The notes under the pieces: model-generated | Told to the model about the DNA's origin: nothing | The model's input: the letters and a program-made list of their open reading frames with translations, nothing else | The model's database searches: none | Made by a program: the position numbers and the translations under genes | Part shown: piece after piece, positions 12,147 to 42,680 of the stretch | How positions within the stretch are numbered: the first letter of the stretch is position 1 | How the letters are laid out: every line of letters begins with the position of its first letter | Origin: an uncultured Pseudomonadales bacterium | Lineage (GTDB): Bacteria > Pseudomonadota > Gammaproteobacteria > Pseudomonadales > Azotimanducaceae | NCBI GenBank assembly: GCA_937921865.1 | Contig: CAKZWF010000033.1 | Coordinates: 1 to 64,000, forward strand | DNA: 64,000 nt | Direction of reading: 5' to 3'

Positions 12147-12190
12147 TAGTCGTTAAAGAGTGTGGATTTAGTCGTTAAAGAGTGTGGATT
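12147..12190 (+). repeat. Perfect 22-bp tandem duplication upstream of TonB receptor
   Basis: Two head-to-tail copies (12147-12168 and 12169-12190) containing GTCGTTAAAGAGTGTGG lie 28 bp before the receptor start codon. A TTGACC at 12136-12141 sits just upstream. The copies span two helical turns, so they could be a duplicated operator or leader element; this is inference. The rest of the 12063-12217 gap shows nothing else. Confidence 0.85.
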
Positions 12191-39835: not shown

Positions 39836-40501
39836 ATGGCTGGATCGAAAACGCGTGGTCGTGGCGGCGGTGGGGTTTCCCGCAGCAAATCCAGCGCCCG
39901 CTGGCTGGCGCGGCAGCGGCGTGATCCGTATACCCGCAAAGCGACCGCCGAGGGCCGGGTATCCAGGGCTCATTTCAAACTAGAAGAAATCGACCGGCGT
40001 TGTCGGTTGCTGCGGCCGGGGATGCGGGTGCTGGAACTGGGCGCTGCACCTGGAGGCTGGACGCGGTACGTTGAAGAGCGAATTCGCGGTGGAATGCTGG
40101 TGGCCTGCGATTTTCGTGCAATCAGCGCGGGACCTGATACCCAGGTTGTCGAAGGCGCGGTCGGTGATCCGGATGTGGATGCAGAGATTGCCCGATTGCT
40201 GGACGATCAGCCGGTAGAGCTTGTTTTGTCTGATATGTCCCCCAACATCAGTGGGATAAGGACCGTAGACCAGGCCCTGTCGATGGAATTAGCGGAACTG
40301 GCTGAAGATTGCGCAGATCGATGGTTGAAGCCAGGTGGGCGGCTGGTGATCAAGATATTCCAGGGTGAAGGTGTTGAAGCCTGGATTCCGAAAGTGCGCA
40401 AGAAGTATGACAAAGTACGGCTACTGAAGCCTAAAGCGTCCCGGTCTGACTCCCGGGAAGTCTATGTGGTTGCCGAAGGATTCCGCCGCAGCCGCGCCTG
40501 A
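39836..40501 (+). CDS. rlmE: 23S rRNA 2'-O-ribose methyltransferase RlmE (FtsJ)
   Basis: SAM-dependent enzyme that methylates U2552 of 23S rRNA in the 50S subunit. The SAM site is 'VLELGAAPGGWTRYV', and the catalytic acid region is 'LVLSDMSPNISG'. The further catalytic Lys and Glu lie in 'GGRLVIKIFQGEG' and 'SREVYVVAEGF'. The N terminus is basic, as usual. The TGA stop is the first copy of a 16-bp tandem repeat, and the last codons form a hairpin with it. Confidence 0.96.
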   Translation: MAGSKTRGRGGGGVSRSKSSARWLARQRRDPYTRKATAEGRVSRAHFKLEEIDRRCRLLRPGMRVLELGAAPGGWTRYVEERIRGGMLVACDFRAISAGPDTQVVEGAVGDPDVDAEIARLLDDQPVELVLSDMSPNISGIRTVDQALSMELAELAEDCADRWLKPGGRLVIKIFQGEGVEAWIPKVRKKYDKVRLLKPKASRSDSREVYVVAEGFRRSRA

Positions 40502-40562
40502 TAGCGGCTGCGCCTGATAGCGGCTGCGCCTGATAGCGGCTGCGCCTGATAGCGGCTGCGCC
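40499..40562 (+). repeat. Four-copy 16-bp tandem repeat starting at the rlmE stop codon
   Basis: TGATAGCGGCTGCGCC is repeated four times perfectly (40499-40562), then a decayed fifth copy begins CGATAGTGACTGC. The first copy includes the rlmE TGA. CGCAGCCGC at the end of rlmE (40487-40495) is the exact inverse complement of GCGGCTGCG in each repeat, so a 9-bp hairpin with an 8-nt loop can form with the first copy and alternatives with later ones. No T-run follows. Confidence 0.93.
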
Positions 40563-40772
40563 CGATAGTGACTGCTTCGGGTATCGCCGGGTTTAAGAAA
40601 GTCCGGAGCCTGAAGGGCCCGGGGCCTCACAACGTCGAAAGTGTTTACACACCCAATTCACACGGTAGGTGTATAGTATCAGGTCGTATTGAAAGGCAAA
40701 GTTCAGCGCCGCGGGCGGCCAGACCGCCAGCCGAAAGGCGGCTAGAACTGCTACTAACAGAGGATTAAGTCT

Positions 40773-42680
40773 TTGACAGACATGGGAAAAAATCTGCTGC
40801 TCTGGCTCATTATCGCAGCAGTACTGTTGACAGTTTTCAATAACTTCAACGTCACACCCGAACCGGAAAGCCTGAGCTATTCGAGCTTTATCGAGCAGGT
40901 TCGCGCTGACCAGGTGCAGCGTGTCGAGATCGATCAGGAAATGATCCACGGCCAGCGCCGCGACGGTGAAGACTTTCAGGTGGTGTTGCCGCCTGTTGCC
41001 GACCCGAAGTTGATGGACGACCTCTACAATCACAATGTTGAGGTGTTGGGTAAATTAGCGGAACGGCCCAGCATCTGGTCGCAACTGCTGATCGCCAGTT
41101 TCCCGATACTGATTATTATCGCCGTCTTCATGCTGTTCATGCGCCAGATGCAGGGCGGTGGCAGCGGTCGCGGAGGCCCGATGGCTTTTGGTAAAAGCAA
41201 AGCCAAGCTGCTCTCGGAAGACCAGATAAAAACCACCTTTGCCGATGTCGCCGGGGTGGACGAAGCCAAAGAGGATGTTCAGGAACTGGTCGAATTCCTG
41301 CGCGACCCGGGCAAATTTCAGCGCCTGGGTGGCCGGATCCCACGCGGTATTCTGATGGTCGGGCAGCCGGGTACCGGTAAGACTCTGCTGGCGAAGGCCA
41401 TTGCCGGCGAAGCTAAAGTGCCATTCTTTTCGATCTCCGGTTCAGATTTTGTCGAAATGTTCGTTGGTGTGGGTGCTTCGCGGGTGCGGGACATGTTCGA
41501 ACAGGCTAAGAAACAGGCGCCCTGTATCATCTTCATTGATGAAATCGACGCCGTCGGCCGACATCGAGGCGCCGGCCTTGGTGGTGGCCACGATGAGCGG
41601 GAACAGACCCTGAACCAGCTGCTGGTCGAAATGGACGGTTTCGAGGGTAATGACGGCATTATCGTGATCGCTGCAACTAACCGACCGGATGTACTCGACC
41701 CGGCGCTGTTGCGCCCGGGACGTTTTGATCGTCAGGTGGTGGTCGGATTGCCGGATATCCGCGGTCGAGAGCAGATACTCAAAGTACATATGCGCAAGGT
41801 TCCGCTGTCTGACGACGTTGATCCGTCAGTGATCGCGCGGGGTACTCCAGGCTTCTCAGGGGCCGATCTGGCCAATCTGATTAACGAGGCTGCGCTGTTT
41901 GCCGCCCGCGCAGGTAAGCGCCTGGTGGAAATGGACGAGTTCGAAAAAGCCAAGGACAAAATCATGATGGGTGCTGAGCGCAAATCGATGGTTATGTCGG
42001 ATAAAGAGAAGCTCAACACTGCCTACCACGAAGCCGGGCACGCCATTGTTGGTCGGCTGATGCCGGATCACGATCCGGTCTACAAAGTGTCGATTATTCC
42101 GCGCGGTCGAGCGCTGGGTGTGACCATGTTCCTGCCCGAAGAGGATCGCTACAGCCTCAGCCGTCAGGCGCTGATTTCGCAGATCTGCAGTCTTTTTGGT
42201 GGTCGAATCGCCGAGGAAATGATTTTAGGTGCAAATTATGTGACCACGGGTGCGTCCAACGATATCGAACGGGCGACAGTGCTGGCTCGCAATATGGTCA
42301 CCAAGTGGGGACTGTCTTCGAAGCTGGGACCGCTGAAATATGACGAAGATGACGGTGAGGTGTTCCTGGGTATGTCTGCTGGGGTGAAGACCAAACCGAT
42401 TTCCGACGATACCGCTCATGCGATCGATGGCGAAGTTCGCAGGATCATTGACGAATGTTATGAAACCGCAACCCGGATTCTCAAAGAGAACGAAGATAAG
42501 CTGCACAAGATGGCGGAGGCTCTGGTAGAACTGGAAACTCTGTCCAGCGACCAGCTTGATGACATCATGGCAGGTGCTAAACCCAGAGCACCAAAGGACA
42601 CGCCGCCGAGTTCGCAGACCCCGGGCGATGAATCCGCCTCTGGAGAGTCTCCAATCGGTGGGCCCGCGCCCGAAGCTTGA
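40773..42680 (+). CDS. ftsH: ATP-dependent zinc metalloprotease FtsH
   Basis: Membrane-anchored AAA+ protease degrading damaged membrane proteins and regulators such as sigma-32 and LpxC. Two N-terminal membrane helices flank a periplasmic domain. Walker A is '[13 protein letters not shown]', Walker B is '[12 protein letters not shown]', and the zinc site is 'HEAGH'. 635 aa. The TTG at 40773 is taken as start because 'AGAGGA' lies 8 nt before it, whereas the ATG at 40782 would be 17 nt away. Its 3' end may overlap folP. The 271 bp upstream hold the tandem repeats; no clear heat-shock promoter. Confidence 0.97.

Follow-up and report, generated by a model that had tools for sequence, protein, structure and literature searches.

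A 16-nucleotide tandem repeat lies on the stop codon of rlmE, immediately upstream of ftsH, in an uncultured bacterium of the family Azotimanducaceae. It is fairly probable that this array is a lineage-specific minisatellite, built up through tandem duplication on the stop codon of rlmE, and that it is one of about 95 comparable arrays in the genome, most of which, when not inside an ORF, are located at the 3′ ends of genes. The array is ordinary when taken alone, and it is of interest as a pointer to a family of repeats associated with stop codons.

Structure and position of the rlmE array

The rlmE ORF (39836–40501, forward strand) encodes the 23S rRNA U2552 2′-O-methyltransferase. The best NCBIfam matches of its product are RlmE/RrmJ (E = 5e-55, under the curated cut-offs), and its orthologues in congeners share 61–65% identity. 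On the same strand, four perfect copies of GCGCCTGATAGCGGCT occupy 40494–40557 (starting at 40494, 40510, 40526 and 40542), followed by a decayed fifth copy, GCGCCCGATAGTGACT (40558–40573), which is identical at 13 of 16 sites and whose three mismatches are all transitions. The rlmE TGA (40499–40501) is located within the first copy, which begins 5 nt before it. Tandem Repeats Finder reports this array at 40494–40568 with a period of 16, 4.7 copies, 98% match and a score of 143. The 16-bp array growing from the rlmE stop, as described in the original prediction, is thus real. Only one further array scores above 40 in the 64-kb window (the whole stretch of 64,000 nucleotides that was analysed), where GCGCCTGATAGCGGCT has 8 matches at up to three mismatches versus 0.98 expected. 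Elsewhere in the window, at 12147–12190, a 22-mer, TAGTCGTTAAAGAGTGTGGATT, is present as two identical copies in tandem.

Each copy carries one TGA and one TAG, which share a single frame. Because the period of 16 is not divisible by three, the frame shifts with every copy and all three frames are closed across the array. The earlier statement that TGATAG in each copy gives stops in every frame therefore holds for the array as a whole and not for a single copy, which closes one frame only. The last rlmE codons include CGCAGCCGC (40487–40495, forward strand), the 5′ arm of a 9-bp inverted repeat with exact complementarity to the 3′ arm, GCGGCTGCG (40504–40512, forward strand). The 3′ arm recurs at 40520, 40536 and 40552, and with four such sites the pairing is able to shift register across the array. 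The foreseen 9-bp hairpin between the end of rlmE and the repeat could form.

The rlmE array is lineage-specific among the genomes compared

The original prediction held that the same sequence scattered through the genome as an unrelated element would count against it. A search of the 4.27-Mb genome finds exact GCGCCTGATAGCGGCT only in the four copies of the array, at a single locus. The broader form of that objection is true, since arrays like that of rlmE are dispersed at gene ends. No tandem pair of GCGCCTGATAGCGGCT at up to three mismatches is present in 97 related genomes, including four congeners; an exact tandem pair has no match in the GTDB genomes, and a 21-mer query has none in viral contigs. 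The rlmE-ftsH spacer is 286 nt long in this genome versus 88–186 nt in the four congeners, and no array is found in the spacers read from these congeners and many other family members. RlmE of congeners, which have no array, stops at a comparable C-terminus. The array is therefore lineage-specific at the resolution of the genomes compared, and it is probably young. Of the original interpretation, a tandem duplication spanning the stop codon of rlmE, which the spacers read in congeners lack, is supported.

Downstream of the array, ftsH (40773–42680, forward strand; NCBIfam FtsH, E = 4e-268, over the cut-off) begins with TTG in a start context (TTG, ...DMGKNLLLW) that is conserved in relatives, and AGAGG at 40759–40763 on the forward strand is by its sequence the likely ribosome-binding site. 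The forward-strand sequence GGTGTATAGTATC (40668–40680) is the counterpart of the TGGTGTAGGCTA motif of relatives and a putative extended −10 element of an ftsH promoter; no −35 element was seen for it. Similar motifs recur shortly 3′ of rlmE and before ftsH in relatives (L014, L015, L018 and L020–L022). Both the putative −10 element and the ribosome-binding site are intact 3′ of the array.

RNA structure at the array

The original prediction suggested that the array acts as a roadblock, an RNA-stabilizing 3′ element or a switch before ftsH. A functional element of this kind would stall ribosomes or RNases at the stop-codon hairpins, protect the rlmE mRNA or tune ftsH expression. It is consistent with such a role that the first hairpin alone folds at −20.2 kcal/mol (z = −3.5) and that G-U pairing on the transcript strand allows neighbouring copies to pair with each other. 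There is also a precedent in the rnc-fpg1 spacer, which measures 6–54 bp in the listed species without a repeat and 279–358 bp in those with one, and in Mycobacterium tuberculosis the length of this repeat is linked to the level of fpg1 mRNA (PMC2734929). However, the whole 101-nt array region has a folding z of −0.9, with 34 of 200 dinucleotide shuffles at least as good, and the mean z in the same shuffle test is 0.01 over 24 stop-associated arrays of the genome, that of rlmE included. On these values, RNA structure was rejected as the general function of the arrays. Furthermore, the rlmE array is missing in congeners and hence not conserved, inspection of its decayed fifth copy reveals no compensatory pairing, and no intrinsic terminator (a GC-rich hairpin with a T run after it) is present in 40300–41000. 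We conclude that the hairpin potential at rlmE is largely due to base composition and repetition, and that nothing specific favours a roadblock or stabilizing role. A regulatory role for the array is unlikely, and a functional 3′ RNA element is an improbable account of it. No Rfam family matches at the array; elsewhere in the window, 52889–53009 matches the ribosomal S15 leader (44.7 bits).

A genome-wide class of arrays at gene ends

In a sample of 1.94 Mb (46% of the genome), 44 arrays were found with units of 14–26 bp in at least about three copies, which scales to roughly 95 in the whole genome. Thirty of the 44 are not buried in an ORF, and 22 of these 30 have an edge between −21 and +26 nt from a stop codon, genes here and below being called by a simple length-based method. 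In G072, another genome of this bacterial family, all 13 arrays lie between −20 and +15 nt from a stop; half of the pieces of G072 were picked for carrying the core repeat described below, a choice not expected to skew the placement of arrays with respect to genes. Arrays are often located between convergent genes, and one (L131:12275-12404) occupies nearly all the space between two convergent stops.

Under a model of uniform insertion, overlap with the stop codon is seen for 15 of 24 arrays in the present genome (G000) versus 11.8 expected (P = 0.09), and for 11 of 13 in G072 versus 7.3 expected (P = 0.006). A simpler random-placement test counting any overlap gives no excess in the present genome (13 versus 12.2 expected). 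After allowing for short intergenic lengths, the excess on stop codons is modest, and a large part of it could be due to arrays being selected against elsewhere. As the overlap in the present genome is weak and not significant, we do not claim precise targeting of the stop codon.

Three contigs, C18, C35 and C39, start inside long arrays of the dispersed family (L090:1-243, L144:1-154 and L148:1-139). Such arrays therefore interrupt the assembly, from which longer ones may be absent. The assembler's evident trouble with arrays of this class, together with the state of the draft (103 contigs, 89.7% complete), would fit a mis-assembly or a wrong copy number at rlmE as well. That array, however, is 80 bp long and can be spanned by ordinary reads, and its last copy has diverged, which makes an assembly artefact very improbable.

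A dispersed family whose unit often supplies the stop codon

Many arrays of the genome share a core, AGCCYTSAGCGR, with 88 matches in the sample versus one for the reversed motif, and about half of the arrays other than that of rlmE are similar to the core at P of 0.005 or less (shuffled units). They constitute a dispersed repeat family with units of 17–25 bp carrying stop codons. This genome has 99 tandem pairs of the core, and its four congeners have 0–3. Some other members of the bacterial family have 158, 77, 58, 33, 27 and 24 pairs and most have none, the reversed control being 0 throughout; among 274 genomes sampled across the class, only five more carry core pairs, with 1–7 each. The family is thus patchy within the bacterial family and nearly absent elsewhere. 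A literature search covering open-licence papers yielded no earlier account of the repeat family.

Arrays of this family are located on or beside the stops of conserved genes, among them atpC, ridA, a lepB-like gene and hslR (L065:2878-2961, L065:18380-18463, L094:13864-13977, L100:8212-8361, L103:1652-1892, L106:15495-15565 and L131:12275-12404; the gene names are our reading of the translations). In both G000 and G072 the repeat's own CAGCCTTGA closes unrelated genes as Gln-Pro-stop: the ending ...CAG CCT TGA, with its TGA within the first unit, is found here in ridA, hslR and a dehydrogenase-like gene, and in several genes of G072. Comparison with the array-free atpC, ridA and hslR of congeners indicates that the array marks the native C-terminus, with no clear truncation. 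In congeners, ridA and hslR end no more than a few codons away from where the array-bearing versions do, and atpC ends in ...KKRRR-TGA, in which CGC-TGA is identical to the six bases that open the array unit here. A hairpin-T terminator similar to that of congeners is present 3′ of the atpC array; therefore the array did not replace the terminator.

The core is found in two forms, GAGCCYTCAGCGR and CAGCCYTGAGCGR; the counts in the genome sample, mixed forms included, are 58, 27, 0 and 0. Among all the loci examined, 194 of 203 units have G..C or C..G at positions 1 and 8, that is, complementary changes. This paired change may reflect a symmetric recognition site, or just two old lineages. One could go further and suppose that the AGCCYTSAGCGR family spreads inside a single bacterial family by seeding at TGA stops and supplying the stop from its own unit, that the rlmE array is a diverged offshoot, and that the paired change points to a two-fold recognition site or structure for a mobilizing enzyme, a scenario that we regard as doubtful.

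A Y1 transposase is present in all 12 genomes that carry 10 or more core pairs versus 26 of 49 others (P = 0.002, Fisher's exact test), an association confounded by kinship and genome size. Near 15 Y1-transposase loci of six genomes there is no exact AGCCYTSAGCGR core and at most isolated one-mismatch matches. Because the repeats do not flank the Y1 genes, the correlation with core abundance carries little weight, and an explanation of the family by RAYT transposases and REP sequences was rejected on the same ground in spite of the statistical association. The present genome has a Y1 (HUH) transposase gene at 2816–3139 of contig C62, and no core repeats flank the Y1 genes checked.

Relation of the rlmE array to the other arrays

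Aligned with the AGCCYTSAGCGR core, the rlmE unit scores 10, and it is not significantly similar by shuffling (P of about 0.61), so that kinship in sequence with the dispersed core is not supported. Nor does it show significant similarity to any other array unit (97 of 300 shuffles as good). Its architecture is that of the AGCCYTSAGCGR family, a tandem array on the stop at a native gene end. The rlmE array is therefore tied to this class by position and form, not by sequence.

The uniqueness of the GCGCCTGATAGCGGCT unit in the genome and its lack of significant similarity to other arrays raise the possibility of a purely local accident, in which a GC-rich quasi-palindrome of rlmE underwent one slippage event that had nothing to do with the dispersed arrays; the inverted repeat adjoining the array could have promoted such slippage. 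Set against this are the high density of arrays in the genome and the position on the stop codon, which matches many other arrays, and we consider a local accident possible though not probable. We rather infer that the rlmE array, a minisatellite grown on the stop codon, belongs to the same process as the other arrays.

Under this process, a first duplication or seeding event at a gene end would add units. As the units carry TGA, TAG or TAA, an array invading the last codons would still close the reading frame, and insertions at or just past the stop would be tolerated because every unit carries a stop codon, while insertions in promoters or gene bodies would be removed. The array would then grow and decay by replication slippage, to which the rlmE array is plausibly prone. 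For rlmE and ftsH it most likely just lengthens the transcribed spacer with little effect, and may well be neutral. Taken as a whole, the arrays of this genome look like a stop-codon-tolerated, possibly spreading minisatellite, and not like a switch built for rlmE and ftsH.

Comparison with known repeat systems

The arrays are best read as resembling the MIRUs or REPs of other bacteria but distinct from both. MIRU/VNTR loci of M. tuberculosis are dispersed tandem repeats in intergenic regions and at operon junctions, which are apparently mobile and located at gene boundaries, so that they disturb expression little; MIRUs enter at start codons and carry an ORF that is coupled to the gene downstream (PMC12548453). 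The arrays of this genome are also dispersed tandem units placed at gene boundaries. However, MIRU units are 40–100 bp long, whereas the arrays here have units of 16–26 bp and are located at stop codons, and the rlmE units form an array with stops in all frames. With a 16-bp unit at one locus, the rlmE array is not a MIRU in the sense of a dispersed 40–100-bp unit coupled to the start by an internal ORF.

REPs are scattered close to 3′ ends, chiefly in spacers between convergent or unidirectional genes, and often have termini that provide the stop codon (PMC3733652). The dispersed arrays here are likewise at 3′ ends, with their own unit often giving the stop. In contrast, REPs form stem-loops that bear a tag and are linked to RAYT transposases, whereas the AGCCYTSAGCGR core is without a GTAG or CGTC tag and head-to-tail arrays dominate. 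The rlmE array itself, a 16-bp unit without the tag at a single locus, does not qualify as a REP, which would be a 20–40-bp stem-loop in many copies with a GTAG or CGTC tag.

The TAACTGA direct repeats of Beggiatoaceae are also short and give stops in all frames, but their unit is 7 bp and they lie mostly just upstream of start codons (PMC4679880); they are a looser parallel than MIRUs or REPs. Borg elements resemble this genome in carrying many independently formed, fast-evolving arrays each, but they are extrachromosomal archaeal elements whose repeats also form in-frame protein repeats, and the abstract describes no seeding at stop codons (PMC9879509).

A single bacterial genome with many short arrays on the stops of conserved genes (atpC, ridA, hslR and rlmE), array-free counterparts of these sites in congeners and a patchy spread provides a comparative system in which to ask how bacterial minisatellites arise and spread, and why gene ends tolerate them. 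Within this system, the paired sequence change between the GAGCCYTCAGCGR and CAGCCYTGAGCGR subfamilies is a testable clue to recognition.
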